In this document: positions 36,968 through 42,296 of the stretch, piece after piece
How the letters are laid out: each line of letters opens with the position of its first letter
How positions within the stretch are numbered: the first letter of the stretch is position 1
Made by a program: the position numbers and the translations under genes
The notes under the pieces: model-generated
Told to the model about the DNA's origin: nothing
The model's database searches: none
The model's input: the letters and a program-made list of their open reading frames with translations, nothing else
DNA from: Brevibacterium sp. XM4083
Lineage (GTDB): Bacteria > Actinomycetota > Actinomycetes > Actinomycetales > Brevibacteriaceae
Direction: 5' to 3'
Assembly: GCF_006489205.2 (NCBI RefSeq)
Contig: NZ_VFYR02000004.1
Coordinates: 456,101 to 520,100 of the forward strand
DNA length: 64,000 bases

Positions 36968-38437
36968 TCACCCGGCGCGAGCGCGGATCTGCGTGCGGAG
37001 AACCTCCTCGGCGTGGGAGCGGGCGCGTCGCCACGCCGGTGCGGCGTCCGGCTCGAGCAGACCGGCGAAGACCCGACGCCAGTCACCGGCACCGCTGTCC
37101 GGAGCACCGCTGTCCGCCGGAGGACCGGTGCTCACTGAAGGACCGGTGCCGGCCATACCGCGGTTCGACCGCCGCGGATGCTTCATCCGCTTGAGGAACG
37201 GCGGGGTCGTCGTCGCGTATCTCCGCCCGGTCGGGGTCGTCACCGTCAGTCCCGTCGCGGTCGCCTCGTGCGACCATCCGGGGTGCTCCTTCGCGTAGTT
37301 GCAGGAGGCGCACAGTCCCGAGCCGTTCTCCCACGAAGTGCCACCGCCGGCGGCGAAGGGCTGAGCATGATCGGCGTGCTTGATCGGGGCATCGCACCAC
37401 GGGGTCCGGCACCGATCGTCACGGAAGATCACCATCTGCCGCAGCCGCCCGGTGAAGGCCCGTGAGCGTGATTCGGTGCCGACGAGCTGACCGTCGGTCA
37501 CGCTCGTGAACATCCGCCTGATGAACACCTCGGCCTCGTTCGCGGCGAGGAAGCTCCGCGCGGTCGCCGCCGGCAGCGGCCCGAATCCGGGCATCCATGC
37601 CGGGACCATGCCGTCAGCGAAGAGCGACTCGGCGTCGATGACGACGTGGACCTCCGTCGGCACCGCCGCGGCAGTCGTCTGCCCGGTCAGCCGCTCAACG
37701 AAACTGTCAGCCATGATCTGCGGGTGCCGCCGACCGTGCGCGTCCCCTCCGGCGATCACCGCGTCTGCCTCGGCCTTGAGCCCCGACCAGACGGCCACGG
37801 CCTGCGGCAGCGGAAGGATCGCGCTCACCCGCCCCATGCCGTCGGCCAGCGGCGTCATCGACACCCGCCGGTGAGCGGCGGCACGCTCCGCCTTCTTCGC
37901 AGCATCCGCGGCGTCGACCTGCATCGCCAGTGCCCGCACCTCGGTGCGCAGACTGCGCGGTCCCGACTGGCCGAGGCTCTCACGCATCCGCGTATCCACG
38001 CGCCGCCGATCCCCCGGCTCGAGGGTCGCCGTCTCCTCGACCACGATCCGCGCCTTGTCCGCGGAGATCTCCCCGGCCGTCAGCGCCGCATAGGTGCCGG
38101 GCAGTTCGGTGACGAGCGATTGGGCGGCGGTGAGGAACTTCCGCCCCGATCCGGGCGAGACCCGCTTCGCCAGCCCCACCTCGTCGCCGGCGCGCACACC
38201 CCACTCCTGGACGGGCAGACCGGCCAGGCGGTCCCGGTCCCGACGCAGCTCGGCGAAGGCGACGGCCTCAGCCGACTGGGCGGCGGCGATCGTCGCGGTG
38301 AGCTCCTCGAGCGCGGTGATCCGCGCGAGCGCGTCGTCCTCGGACTCCGCCACCGCGGCACCGCGCAGGAAGCCGCCCAATCGGGCCACCTCGGCGAGGT
38401 AGTCCGACGGCGATTCCGGAGCGGGACCGATCTCCAT
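36968..38437 (-). CDS. DUF222/HNH endonuclease domain protein
   Basis: A 489-aa protein of a large actinobacterial paralogous family. An N-terminal DUF222 helical domain (about 10-330) precedes an HNH nuclease domain: FRDDRCRTPWCDAPIKHADH, then GLCASCNYAKEHPGW, with two CxxC-type pairs binding zinc. A disordered Pro/Ser/Gly tail follows. The family's role is uncertain; members have been linked to mobile elements, but many are single chromosomal genes as here. A -10 TAGGGT ends six bases before the ATG and no Shine-Dalgarno is present. Confidence 0.88.
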   Translation of the reverse strand: MEIGPAPESPSDYLAEVARLGGFLRGAAVAESEDDALARITALEELTATIAAAQSAEAVAFAELRRDRDRLAGLPVQEWGVRAGDEVGLAKRVSPGSGRKFLTAAQSLVTELPGTYAALTAGEISADKARIVVEETATLEPGDRRRVDTRMRESLGQSGPRSLRTEVRALAMQVDAADAAKKAERAAAHRRVSMTPLADGMGRVSAILPLPQAVAVWSGLKAEADAVIAGGDAHGRRHPQIMADSFVERLTGQTTAAAVPTEVHVVIDAESLFADGMVPAWMPGFGPLPAATARSFLAANEAEVFIRRMFTSVTDGQLVGTESRSRAFTGRLRQMVIFRDDRCRTPWCDAPIKHADHAQPFAAGGGTSWENGSGLCASCNYAKEHPGWSHEATATGLTVTTPTGRRYATTTPPFLKRMKHPRRSNRGMAGTGPSVSTGPPADSGAPDSGAGDWRRVFAGLLEPDAAPAWRRARSHAEEVLRTQIRARAG

Positions 38438-38511: not shown

Positions 38512-39120
38512 TCACGCCCCGGCTTTGATCCTCCGCATGATCATGTCCATCGCGACGATGTTGTGGCCGCCCTCGGGGACGATGAGATCGGCGTTGCGCT
38601 TCGAGGGCTCGACGTAGAGCTCGTGCATCGGCTTGACGGTGCCGAGGTACTGCTCCTCGACGGATTCGAGCGTCCGGCCCCGTTCGATGACGTCGCGTTT
38701 GATCCGGCGCAGCAGGCGGACGTCGGCATCGGTGTCGACGAAGAGCTTGATGTCGAGGAGTTCGCAGATGCGCGGCTCGGCGAGGATGAGGATGCCCTCG
38801 ACGATGATGACCGGAGAGGGCTGGACGACGGTCGTGTCCGTGCTCCGGTTGTGGTTGGAGAAGTCGTAGATCGGGCTCTCGACCGACCGCTGGCTGCGCA
38901 GCGCGAGGAGATGGTCGACGAAGAGGTCGTTGTCGAAGGCGTCGAGGTCGTCGTAGTTGACGCGCTCGCGCTCGGCGAAGGTGAGGTCGTCCTGCCGGCG
39001 GTAGTAGTTGTCGTGGTAGAGCACCGAGGACACGCCCACGCACTCGGCCAGCAGCGCCCGGGTCAGCGTCGTCTTCCCGCTGCCGGTGCCCCCGGCCACG
39101 CCCACAGTCAGAATCTCCAC
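38512..39120 (-). CDS. udk: Uridine kinase
   Basis: A 202-aa P-loop kinase that phosphorylates uridine (and probably cytidine). The Walker A motif is GGTGSGKTTL near the N-terminus, with HDNYYR, the YDF segment, VIIVEGILIL and RRIKRDVIERGR. The frame is open further upstream, but GTG at 39120 gives the normal start (VEILTVGVAGG) and has GAGGGAA nine bases before it. It diverges from the mgtE leader. It complements upp in pyrimidine salvage. Confidence 0.93.
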   Translation of the reverse strand: MEILTVGVAGGTGSGKTTLTRALLAECVGVSSVLYHDNYYRRQDDLTFAERERVNYDDLDAFDNDLFVDHLLALRSQRSVESPIYDFSNHNRSTDTTVVQPSPVIIVEGILILAEPRICELLDIKLFVDTDADVRLLRRIKRDVIERGRTLESVEEQYLGTVKPMHELYVEPSKRNADLIVPEGGHNIVAMDMIMRRIKAGA

Positions 39121-39194
39121 GGTCGCATATTCCCTCGTCTCGCCCGAATGTCTCCCCAAATCTACCCGATGCGGTTCGTGTCCGACCCCTCCGA

Positions 39195-39200
39195 TAGGGT
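39195..39200 (+). promoter_or_regulatory. -10 element (TAGGGT) of the mgtE leader transcript
   Basis: The context CCGATAGGGT recurs before the secreted nuclease gene (46738-46747). A start near 39207 would leave about 35 bases before the leader-peptide ATG. Confidence 0.4.
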
Positions 39201-39241
39201 GGAGGAAAGCTGCCGGAGCCGCGTCAAGGAGGTGGTCGTCG

Positions 39242-39286
39242 ATGGATTCCGACTCTCGATTGTGCCGCCCCTCCCCCATGCCCTGA
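39242..39286 (+). CDS. Proline-rich leader peptide of mgtE (14 aa)
   Basis: A 14-codon ORF, MDSDSRLCRPSPMP, begins seven bases after AAGGAGGTG (39226-39234), one of the strongest Shine-Dalgarno sequences in the window. It has an acidic N-terminus, three prolines in its last five residues and several codons rare in this genome (TCT, CGA, TTG). This matches the design of MgtL, the enterobacterial mgtA leader, where acidic/proline stretches destabilise ribosomes at low Mg2+. Its stop is followed directly by a pair of alternative hairpins that end at the mgtE ribosome-binding site. Confidence 0.65.
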   Translation: MDSDSRLCRPSPMP

Positions 39287-39336
39287 CGCCTGCTGTCCGA
39301 CCGCTCCTTCCGCAGGCGTCGATCGACGACTGCCTG
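39287..39336 (+). promoter_or_regulatory. Mutually exclusive hairpins controlling mgtE translation
   Basis: Hairpin A pairs CGCCTGC (39287-39293) with GCAGGCG (39312-39318). Hairpin B reuses the latter segment: CAGGC-GTCG (39313-39321) pairs with CGAC-T-GCCTG (39327-39336), giving nine pairs with one bulged T. Hairpin B takes the first G of the GGAG at 39336-39339, the mgtE Shine-Dalgarno. Only one of the two can form. No U tract is seen, so control would be of translation, or of Rho access. Confidence 0.55.
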
Positions 39337-39345
39337 GAGACGACC

Positions 39346-40677
39346 ATGGACGCGTCCACCATCCGCACCCTGACCGCCGACCGTGAGCTGCCGCGCCTGG
39401 CAGCCGCCGTGCGCCGCCTCGGCTCATCAGCGACGACCGACCTCATCGCGCAGCTGCCCGCCACCGAGGCGGCCGTGGTCTTCCGACTCCTGCCGAAGAC
39501 CGTGTCCGTCGACGTCTTCGACCGCCTCGACCGCGGCACGCGCTCCGACCTCATCACCGCGCTCGGCACCGCGGAGCTGACGACGATCTTCGCCGACCTC
39601 GACCCGGAGGACCAGAGCCGCCTCGTCGACGAACTCCCCGCGAACGTCGCGACGAAGCTGCTCGCCGCAGTCTCCCCTGCCGATCTCGACGCGGTCATGG
39701 CCGTCGCCGGCTACGACCGGAACTCGATCGCCCGCCGGATGTCTCCGACGGCCGTCGTGGCGTGGGAGGACGACACCGTCACCGAGGTGGCCGACCGGGT
39801 CCGCGCCGCCGACGTCGATCTCGCCGACGTCCGCCTCCTGCCCGTCCTCACCGCCGACCGCACTCTCGTGGGGACCCTCGACGCGCTCGAACTCCTCCGG
39901 TGCGACGCACACTGCCCGGTCACCTCGGCGATGGACCCGCTCGAGACGGTCACGCACACGAGTGAGGATCAGGAGACGGCAGCGCGGGCGGCCCTGCGCG
40001 ACGGCGTGCCCGTCCTGCCCGTGTGCGACAGCGAGAACCGCCTCGTCGGGATCGTGCCGATCGACGACGCGGCGCGGATCATCGCCGAGGCCGACGAAGC
40101 CGACTTCGCGCTCTCCGGCGGCACCCAGCCGCTCTACCGCCGGTACCTGCCGACCCCGATCCTCACGATCGCGCGCACCCGCATCGTCTGGCTCCTCGTC
40201 CTCGCCGTGTCCGCCGTGCTCACCGTTCACGTCCTCGAGATCTTCGAATCGACGCTCGCCGAGGTGGTCGCCCTCGCCCTCTTCATCCCCCTGCTCACGG
40301 GCATCGGCGGGAACACCGGCTCGCAGGCGGCGACGACCGTGACGCGGGCGCTGGCGATGGACGAGGTGGGGCTGCGGGACTTCGCGCGGGTCGCCGTCAA
40401 GGAGTTCACGACGGGCCTGGCCCTCGGCGTCCTCCTCGCCGTCCCGGCGTTCGCGATCGCCTCCCCGCTCTACGGCCTCGACATCGGGACGATCATCGGC
40501 CTCACCCTCATCGTCAACTGTCCGATCGCCGCCCTCGTCGGCGGGTCGATCCCGCTCGTCGCCAAGGCCTGCCGTGTCGATCCGGCGGTCGTGTCGACCC
40601 CGTTCATCTCGACGTTCTGCGATGCCAGCGGACTGCTCGTCTACTTCACGATCGCCATCTCGATCATGGGCCTGTGA
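39346..40677 (+). CDS. mgtE: Magnesium transporter MgtE
   Basis: A 443-aa Mg2+ channel with the cytosolic MgtE N superhelical domain (about 1-125), a CBS pair (about 130-255) and five membrane helices in the C-terminal third. The pore signature FIPLLTGIGGNTGSQAATTV and the late NCPIAALVGGSIPLV are intact. ATG at 39346 has GGAG six bases upstream. The open frame continues far upstream but through the leader region. The CBS and N domains close the pore at high cytosolic Mg2+, so leader control would add a second layer. Confidence 0.95.
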   Translation: MDASTIRTLTADRELPRLAAAVRRLGSSATTDLIAQLPATEAAVVFRLLPKTVSVDVFDRLDRGTRSDLITALGTAELTTIFADLDPEDQSRLVDELPANVATKLLAAVSPADLDAVMAVAGYDRNSIARRMSPTAVVAWEDDTVTEVADRVRAADVDLADVRLLPVLTADRTLVGTLDALELLRCDAHCPVTSAMDPLETVTHTSEDQETAARAALRDGVPVLPVCDSENRLVGIVPIDDAARIIAEADEADFALSGGTQPLYRRYLPTPILTIARTRIVWLLVLAVSAVLTVHVLEIFESTLAEVVALALFIPLLTGIGGNTGSQAATTVTRALAMDEVGLRDFARVAVKEFTTGLALGVLLAVPAFAIASPLYGLDIGTIIGLTLIVNCPIAALVGGSIPLVAKACRVDPAVVSTPFISTFCDASGLLVYFTIAISIMGL

Positions 40678-40696: not shown

Positions 40697-40732
40697 TTCA
40701 GCCGAAGTGCCGGGTTCAGCCGAAGTGCTGGG
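40697..40732. repeat. 18-bp tandem duplication over the regulator stop codon
   Basis: TTCAGCCGAAGTGC(C/T)GGG occurs at 40697-40714 and 40715-40732 with one mismatch. On the minus strand each copy encodes HFG-stop in frame, so the gene has a second identical ending six codons downstream. Confidence 0.75.
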
Positions 40733-42296
40733 TCAGCTGCGCCCACAGCTCGTGGTCGAAGCGGCGGCGGGCGAGGAGTCCGGACATGTGGCGCACCGCG
40801 TTGTCGACCTTGCCGCGCCACACCTCGATGGCCTCCCGCGCATCCCCGCGTGACAGGGCCCGGAAGATGCCGCGGTCGTCGGCGAGGATCCGGTCGCTGG
40901 CCGGGGAGTAGTCGAGCCTGAGGACGGAGATGAAGAGGCGCAGACGCAGGGTGAGCGATTCGAAGGCCCGCGCGCTCTGCCGCAGCCCCGAGGCGCGGGC
41001 GAGCTCCTGCTGGAAGTGGAGGTCGGCGTCCTCGACGTCGATGCCGCTGCGCGTCGCCGCCGAGGCCTCGACCTGCCGGAGGGCGAGCTGGACGGGAACG
41101 AGGAACCGCTGGGGGCGCAGGGCGAGAGACCGCAGCAGCACCTCGCCGACGGCCATCCGCGCCGCGTAGAGGTCGAGGACGTCGACGGTCGTGATGAGCG
41201 GGATCCTCGCCCCGCCGCGAGTGCCGTCGAGCAGTCCGTCGTCGACCATCCGCCGCAGCGCGGCATCGACCGAGGACCGCGGCACCTCCATGCGGCGGGA
41301 GAGCAGCTTCGGGCTGATCCGGTCCCCGGGTTCGTAGCCGGAGTCGATGATCTCCTCGCGCAGGGCGATCGCGAGGTGCTCGGTGATCGAGCGGGTCGCG
41401 CTCGGCAGCCATGAGGAGATCTCCATTGAGTCAGAACTCGTGGAAGTTTTCGGTGCCTCGGTCTGCCGCCCGGCCTGCCAGTTCACCCCTTCGAAGCCGT
41501 GGCGCACACGGCCGGAGACGAGGTCGAGGAGCGAGCCGGGAATGTCCTGACTGTGCGCGAACGCCTCCTTGAGCGCGGTGACGAAGGCGTCGATGTCGCG
41601 GTGGAGGGAGAGGTGGCTCAGGTGCGGGGCGTGCTCGAATGATGCGGCGACGACCTCGGCGGCCTCGCCGAGGGGGTCGAAGACGACGAGCCGCAGGGCG
41701 CTCGGGGCGACCCCCGGCACGCCGTCGCGGATGATCGTCATCGCCGCCTCATCGGTCTGCCGGTGCTCGCTGCCGAAGCGCTGGGACCACCGGGCGACGC
41801 CCGCCGAGCGCAGCGCGGCGACGAGTCCGGCGATGCGCCGCTGGATCCGCCGCGCCGGGACCGCCGGGCCGGGCTCGGCTCCCGCCCGCCGGCGGAAGCC
41901 GACGACGATGAGGGGGAATCCGCCGACCGCGGCGACGACCTCGTCGCCCCCGCCTCCGGCCGTGCGGACCTCGGCGAGGTGGGCCGAGGACACCGTGAGG
42001 TCCTGCATCGCCCGGGTCACGATGCTCTGGCTCAGGCCCGTCGCCTCGGCGAGCGCCCGAGTCGAGAAGTCCGGTCCGGAGATGCGGGCGCCCGCGGTTC
42101 CCACGAGCGCCTCGACGACCTGGGCGGCGGTGCTCTGGATCTGCGGCCGCCCGCTGCGGGGACGGTCGCCGAGGTCCGCGCGGCGGACCCAGCGACGCAG
42201 ACTCGACTCGGACACCCCCGCCTCCGCGGCCGCCTCGGCGATCGAGGTCACTGCCGCGCGAACGACGGTCTCGCGACGGAACTCGGGCGTGTACAT
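40716..42296 (-). CDS. Composite regulator: transposase-type HTH plus GntR/FCD
   Basis: This 526-aa protein has three parts. Residues 1-60 are an IS3-OrfA-like helix-turn-helix (FRRETVVRAA, AAEAGVSESSLRRWVRR). Residues about 60-290 include a second HTH-like segment (ALAEATGLSQSIVTRAM) and an unassigned domain. Residues about 310-520 are a complete GntR winged helix (ISPKLLSRRMEVPRSSVDAALRRMVDDGLL) with an FCD-like ligand domain. It diverges from putA across 142 bases and probably responds to proline or a product (inference). I know of no family with this exact order. Confidence 0.8.
   Translation of the reverse strand: MYTPEFRRETVVRAAVTSIAEAAAEAGVSESSLRRWVRRADLGDRPRSGRPQIQSTAAQVVEALVGTAGARISGPDFSTRALAEATGLSQSIVTRAMQDLTVSSAHLAEVRTAGGGGDEVVAAVGGFPLIVVGFRRRAGAEPGPAVPARRIQRRIAGLVAALRSAGVARWSQRFGSEHRQTDEAAMTIIRDGVPGVAPSALRLVVFDPLGEAAEVVAASFEHAPHLSHLSLHRDIDAFVTALKEAFAHSQDIPGSLLDLVSGRVRHGFEGVNWQAGRQTEAPKTSTSSDSMEISSWLPSATRSITEHLAIALREEIIDSGYEPGDRISPKLLSRRMEVPRSSVDAALRRMVDDGLLDGTRGGARIPLITTVDVLDLYAARMAVGEVLLRSLALRPQRFLVPVQLALRQVEASAATRSGIDVEDADLHFQQELARASGLRQSARAFESLTLRLRLFISVLRLDYSPASDRILADDRGIFRALSRGDAREAIEVWRGKVDNAVRHMSGLLARRRFDHELWAQLTQHFG

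Follow-up and report, generated by a model that had tools for sequence, protein, structure and literature searches.

The short open reading frame (ORF) at positions 39242-39286 of the window, by which we mean the entire stretch of 64,000 nucleotides of Brevibacterium sp. XM4083 DNA analyzed here, is probably a member of a family of leader peptides that regulate Mg2+-transport genes in Actinobacteria, working as a translation-dependent attenuator. The peptides share the motif [MV]-x(0-2)-[D/E]-x(2-4)-S-R and are encoded upstream of mgtE, corA, mgtA and mgtC. Their association with Mg2+ transport is well supported by the sequence comparisons described below; that the ribosome is the sensor, and in which direction the genes are regulated, are points that we infer. 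In enterobacteria, Mg2+ uptake is known to be controlled by leader peptides, and the Mg2+-sensing leader described for Bacillus and mycobacteria is the M-box. If our reading is right, Actinobacteria would possess a second, ribosome-based Mg2+ sensor, common to four unrelated transporter families; the D/E..SR motif is simple, and thus easily searched for and mutated, and both Mg2+ sensing by acidic nascent chains beyond enterobacteria and the role of Ser-Arg would become testable.

The leader ORF and its locus

The leader ORF, on the forward strand like mgtE and the other elements of the leader, extends from an ATG to a TGA stop at 39284-39286 and encodes a peptide of 14 codons (MDSDSRLCRPSPMP). 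A strong, extended Shine-Dalgarno sequence (AAGGAGGTGGT, 39226-39236) with the core AAGGAGG at 39226-39232 precedes it. The 14-codon ORF with a ribosome site before mgtE claimed in a preliminary description of this DNA is confirmed. The conserved core D-S-D-S-R is encoded at 39245-39259, with the Ser-Arg codons TCT CGA at 39254-39259, and is followed by a C-rich tract (39261-39283) that contains an anti-Shine-Dalgarno CCCCTCC. The stop is separated by 59 nt from mgtE (39346-40677, start ATG at 39346, Shine-Dalgarno GGAG at 39336-39339), whose product of 443 aa has the Pfam architecture MgtE_N-CBS-MgtE and is a true MgtE, scoring above the cut-off of NCBIfam TIGR00400.

Transcription probably begins 5' of the ORF, because a -10-like element, TAGGGT (39195-39200), lies 47 nt upstream of it and would place the start near 39206. 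A transcription start downstream of 39242, which would contradict the preliminary description, is thereby made improbable; a scan with the sigma-70 consensus returned no site. Of 21 leaders, 18 have a TANNNT hexamer 25-100 nt 5' of their start codon, against a background of 0.0014 per position (about 0.1 per 75 nt); those that lack it are L193, an mgtA leader, and both mgtC leaders.

Three minus-strand ORFs surround the locus, as judged by eye: a divergent uridine-kinase-like frame (38512-39279), an ORF resembling a DUF222/HNH endonuclease-type protein (36968-38437), and, 3' of mgtE and convergent with it, one resembling a GntR-type regulator (40716-42296). The first ATG of the uridine-kinase-like frame, at 39279, falls inside the leader ORF, so that automatic annotation could begin that gene too early and mask the leader.

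The element had been taken for something other than a standard M-box, and the Rfam searches agree. Between 38000 and 40000, no Rfam family, the M-box (RF00380) included, was matched at E values up to 10 apart from two weak unrelated hits. In 20 loci drawn from the 80 best of 219 relatives, a tRNA alone reached the gathering score.

Conservation of the leader upstream of mgtE

Of 57 genomes searched within the genus, 7 (its own included) encode an MgtE with 77-100% identity to that of the window, and each of these 7 has the leader ORF. The peptides start with MDSDSRLC or MDPDSRLC and vary in their tails. The codon for Ser5 is TCT in the window, in L012 and in B. casei, and AGT in the remaining Brevibacterium leaders, a two-base change that preserves the serine. 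Hairpin A (described below) is conserved across Brevibacterium, and CGCCTG is found at +27 from the Arg codon in the 7 leaders; in B. casei (L013:2913-2975) the loop of this hairpin carries a large insertion, and its 3' arm, CAGGCGTC, is retained further downstream. Brevibacterium also has a second MgtE type (44-48% identity), which in the 23 loci examined is without the leader; a single match to the motif pattern among these loci, L144, was judged to be due to chance. Over the 54 loci of this comparison the pattern matched 11 on the sense strand and 5 on the reverse strand.

The acidic start noted in the preliminary description is borne out by D2 and D4, which resemble Glu2 and Asp4 in the EPDP of MgtL. 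The proline-rich end fared differently: in Brevibacterium the nucleotides of the C-rich tract are conserved, but they are read in differing frames and the amino acids are not kept, so that this end is not conserved as a peptide. Proline is absent past Ser-Arg in the leaders of Timonella, Leucobacter, Ruania, Sphaerimonospora and Mycetocola, and likewise in both mgtC leaders.

Beyond the genus, we considered 81 mgtE loci, namely the best 80 of 219 relatives plus the window. In 14 of them (Brevibacterium, Timonella, Leucobacter, Ruania, Sphaerimonospora and Mycetocola) the motif is accompanied by a good ribosome site, and by the same test the other 67 lack this combination. As a pattern the motif matched 18/81 loci in the sense direction vs 2/81 in reverse; four of the 18 (L017, L036, L055, L075) were rejected for want of a strong ribosome site. 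On a tree of 44 of the 81 MgtE proteins the leader label needs 6 changes, 3 of them forced by well supported branches, and the distribution of the leader is therefore patchy rather than that of a single clade.

Gene-blind genome scans

A sequence-only model (R1) of the ribosome site and first codons was trained on 9 mgtE leaders and used to scan genomes with disregard of the downstream gene. Applied to the 81 mgtE loci, it matched 12 places, every one at a leader, and missed the two Ruania leaders. The genome scans covered 396 genomes of the order, 394 of the class and 150 of one family. The class scan returned the own genome only (E≤0.001; the filters applied to large sets lose weak matches), while in the order and family scans 9 of the 12 places with E≤0.004 lie upstream of a Mg2+-transport gene (mgtE 5, mgtC 2, corA 1, mgtA 1). 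With the training species and their congeners removed, 5 of 8 places at this threshold, in 4 genera, precede such a gene. The remaining 3 of the 12 best places, and most of the weaker ones, are chance matches. The order scan gave 44 places at E≤0.05; loci were obtained for 30, a D/E..SR ORF is present in 8 of these, and 7 of the 8 precede a Mg2+-transport gene. In the E range 0.004-0.05, only 2 (L113 and L125) of the 24 places fetched (L109-L132) qualify.

Retraining with the newly found leaders produced a second model, R2. Among 81 genomes from another family, 3 gave a match at E≤0.01, all before mgtE; two of these leaders were in its training set and the third, L106, was not. In the 17 leader-bearing genomes it gave 28 places at E≤0.1. 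These comprise the 17 known leaders, L207, and a further 10, of which 9 were inspected and contain no leader of this type. L207 is an extra copy before mgtA (E = 1.3e-6), itself outside the training set, although the model had been trained on a sister copy from that genome; this sister, the corA leader L107, is 3.8 kb away, and the two peptides begin VSDKHSRS (L207) and VSDDHSRS (L107). By eye, L107 and L207 are similar only in the Shine-Dalgarno site and first codons. The identities of the downstream genes were verified by profile: CorA (PF01544, 2e-41) and MgtC (PF02308, 3e-39) are above the Pfam cut-offs and below those of NCBIfam, and the mgtA products match the magnesium-translocating P-type ATPase at 5e-152 and 2e-148 (fragments, under the full-length cut-offs); the mgtE products were identified as MgtE.

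Four model-like places (L108, L122, L190, L192) lie in or before genes that appear unrelated by eye, and were rejected as chance. One of them, L190 (also L208), from the genome with the mgtA leader L193, has a TTG-started LSEDSASRSC... before what by eye is a glycosyltransferase-like gene; its R1 E value is 0.0011 and its motif complete, yet it is probably a chance occurrence. A looser pattern matched 11 of the 394 class genomes; the 10 besides the own genome were treated as chance because a backwards control also matched several genomes.

These results bear on an alternative explanation of the ORF, that it serves only for translational coupling or ribosome recruitment near mgtE and senses nothing. 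The gap of just 59 nt between leader stop and mgtE in the window would suit such a role, but the leader is separated from the transporter gene by about 440 nt in L106 and about 460 nt in L107, the latter with a short ORF in between, and three quarters of the best gene-blind places share a function in Mg2+ transport downstream; we regard this explanation as very improbable.

Peptide motif and codons

We collected 25 leaders, 24 of them distinct (L074 and L188 are identical in sequence). Each of the 25 has an acidic residue within codons 2-4 and Ser-Arg within codons 5-8; from the start to Ser there are 12, 15 or 18 nt, always a whole number of codons. DxD or DD is found in Brevibacterium, L106/L113, L107, L193 and L195, and the remaining groups have just one D or E; the single acidic residue of about half of the groups is a weaker feature than the EPDP of MgtL. 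A proline adjoins the acidic residue in some groups only. Ser-Arg is encoded by AGT CGA in 17 leaders, TCT CGA in 3, AGC CGA in 2, AGT CGG in 2 and AGT CGT in 1. AGT accounts for 2.3% of 132 Ser codons and CGA for 2.2% of 178 Arg codons in four ORFs of the window, and for 3.8% of 260 and 6.1% of 394, respectively, in 13 mgtE genes. The conserved Ser-Arg with its rare codons, together with a 27-nt spacing to a hairpin arm, goes beyond what the preliminary description contained. On the sequence evidence, the leader peptide is under selection, since the acidic residue and Ser-Arg are kept, Ser and Arg through differing codons, and the spacing from start to Ser varies by whole codons; the rare codons or the RNA are under selection as well.

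The weight of the RNA is the crux of an alternative in which the conserved stretch is an RNA element, either an undescribed riboswitch-like structure or a protein-binding site with AGUCGAUC in it, and the presence of the ORF is accidental. In its favor, AGTCGATC is nearly invariant at the nucleotide level, down to the rare codons, and the competing helices described below overlap it. This is difficult to reconcile with the preservation of Ser through AGT, TCT and AGC and of Arg through CGA, CGG and CGT, with variation in length between start and Ser by whole codons only, or with the occurrence of a start and a ribosome site in 25/25 leaders, although the leaders were chosen in part by those features; moreover, the stem partners of AGUCGAUC are, by eye, out of register between genera. 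We consider an RNA element unlikely.

The rarity of AGT CGA could also mean that the ORF senses charged tRNA-Arg or tRNA-Ser, or the speed of translation, with Mg2+ genes as targets since ribosomes need Mg2+. There is precedent in the Salmonella mgtM and mgtP leaders of the mgtCBRU operon, which respond to ATP and to charged tRNA-Pro (PMC8092293). Codon sensing, however, would have no need of the acidic residue found in 25/25 leaders, and to us it appears a little less plausible still than the RNA element.

RNA folds in the window and across groups

Two hairpins that cannot coexist had been described past the ORF, and both were recovered. Hairpin A (39284-39321; arms 39284-39293 and 39312-39321; -18.1 kcal/mol), which we also call P1 or 2:3, has a CGCC that begins 27 nt past the Arg codon. 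Hairpin B, or 3:4 (39313-39336; -13.2 kcal/mol), reaches into the mgtE GGAG by one base, its first G, and uses the 3' arm of hairpin A, which makes the two mutually exclusive. In a third helix, 1:2 (39221-39289), the region before the start pairs with both the C-rich tract and hairpin A's 5' arm; this is the minimum-energy fold. All three helices are predicted to be able to form. A possible long-range helix (39229-39336; duplex -25.2 kcal/mol), seen on inspection only in the window, L012 and L013, would join the leader Shine-Dalgarno/start with about 39320-39336. In the window the folding z-scores are -0.19 for the whole leader, -1.43 for 67 nt around hairpin A, -2.5 for 48 nt, and only -0.28 for helix 1:2. 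Folding by itself is weak evidence for an element; it is conservation that provides the proof against chance.

Across groups, CGCGYC with at most one mismatch (background 2.3% per position) is placed exactly at +27 nt from the Arg codon in 9 of the 25 leaders. These belong to Timonella, Leucobacter, Ruania, Sphaerimonospora and Mycetocola, which make up 5 of the 14 groups, and in most of these five genera the hexamer is the 5' arm of a predicted hairpin. The position is the same whether the stop codon of the ORF ends at +27, as in three of the genera, or at +45, as in the other two. L106/L113 and L189/L191 have a CGCGYC-like hexamer at +24 to +26, and a CGCGYC-like arm near +27 is absent in 5 of 14 groups (L195, L107, L207, L125, L193). 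A P1 hairpin with a CGCG/CGCC-type arm at +24 to +28 is predicted in 18/23 leaders and 8/13 representatives; none of this type is predicted in L074, L195, L107, L125 and L193. The mean z-score of P1 over the 13 representatives is -0.63, and the use of its arm is 6.1 vs 4.6 (p = 0.09). For helix 1:2, the mean z-score is -1.12 (p = 0.005) over representatives of 14 groups, and its use of nucleotides +24 to +32 is 5.9 vs 3.65 expected (p = 0.013); these p-values refer to structural positions picked after the sequences had been seen, and to a set of representatives in which two, the window and L014, are both Brevibacterium.

Hairpin A is kept within Brevibacterium. On the P1 alignment RNAalifold gave 3 pairs with zero compensatory changes, and thus no formal covariation support for P1. 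We have not built on this alignment because MAFFT fails to match the arms between genera. Pairing of the leader Shine-Dalgarno with the tract past Ser-Arg is significant over 13 representatives (Fisher p = 0.001) and convincing by eye in Leucobacter and Ruania. Sequestration of the leader Shine-Dalgarno was rejected, and is not claimed, because the site is no less accessible than in shuffles (unpaired 0.29 vs 0.26, p = 0.54).

Proposed mechanism

Occurrence of the same leader before four unrelated kinds of Mg2+-transport genes suggests sensing of Mg2+ through the translating ribosome. At low Mg2+ the ribosome would slow down or be lost while translating the acidic start and the rare codons for Ser-Arg. 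Standing at Ser-Arg it would break helix 1:2 and leave the P1 arm free, whereupon P1 (2:3) could form and the transporter would be made; since a ribosome footprint covers roughly 10-15 nt ahead, a ribosome in this position would spare P1 at +27. Once at the stop, the ribosome would instead cover the P1 arm, favoring the competing 3:4 fold (hairpin B in the window) and reducing output; with no ribosome, 1:2 would hold the P1 arm, with the same lowered output. The readout may be translation of mgtE or termination, possibly Rho-dependent. A broader proposal, which we advance tentatively and hold slightly less likely than its contrary, is that an acidic start and a rare-codon Ser-Arg about 27 nt before a hairpin constitute a regulon-wide ribosome sensor of Mg2+ for MgtE, CorA, MgtA and MgtC, with a motif of its own and no M-box.

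In the preliminary description the switch between hairpins A and B acted on the mgtE ribosome site. The competing helices can indeed form, but the predicted accessibility of GGAG does not follow the expected logic: with one set of flanks it is 0.57 without a ribosome, 0.67 with a ribosome at Ser-Arg and 0.45 at the stop, and with another set 0.55, 0.09 and 0.32, respectively. Over the window and 13 relatives no consistent predicted shift distinguishes a ribosome at Ser-Arg from one at the stop. Because of this inconsistency across flanks and relatives we do not endorse hairpin B as the readout.

Comparison with known systems

Among the matches listed by searches of the open-licence literature (titles and beginnings of abstracts; subscription papers are largely outside this scope), none concerns a leader of this type before actinobacterial mgtE, corA, mgtA or mgtC. 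The mgtE motif SRC-65-1, a proposed riboswitch reported only in Thioalkalivibrio, is likewise a leader element before mgtE, but the available part of PMC11109978 describes no leader ORF for it. The M-box (ykoK) controls Mg2+ genes including mgtE, and that of M. tuberculosis has uORFs (PMC12810186); small ORFs in actinobacterial leaders of Mg2+ genes are common to both systems. The leader locus, in contrast, has no M-box match, and uORF2 of the M-box is described in PMC12810186 as mycobacteria-specific, with a conserved proline and a location after the aptamer.

Two further parallels are enterobacterial. The 8-codon ORF mgtQ before Salmonella mgtB resembles our leader in its AGGAGG site, its acidic codon 2, and the alternative 1:2 + 3:4 vs 2:3 folds around the ribosome site of the gene; it differs in being intergenic and enterobacterial, with a translational output, and the excerpt of PMC8092293 that describes it mentions no Ser-Arg. 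MgtL, the leader peptide of enterobacterial mgtA, acts through EPDP and intrinsic ribosome destabilization (PMC11282234, as excerpted). It too is a short ORF with its own ribosome site before a Mg2+-transport gene, and the acidic residues at codons 2 and 4 of the Brevibacterium leaders (MDSD, MDPD) correspond to its Glu2 and Asp4, which by eye are the only positions of agreement between the peptides. No Ser-Arg is mentioned for MgtL in that excerpt of PMC11282234, and its lineage is enterobacterial, while the leader of Actinobacteria has an unconserved tail and precedes mgtE, corA, mgtA and mgtC. By analogy, we read the actinobacterial leader as one that would work like MgtL and MgtQ, with a differing peptide motif.
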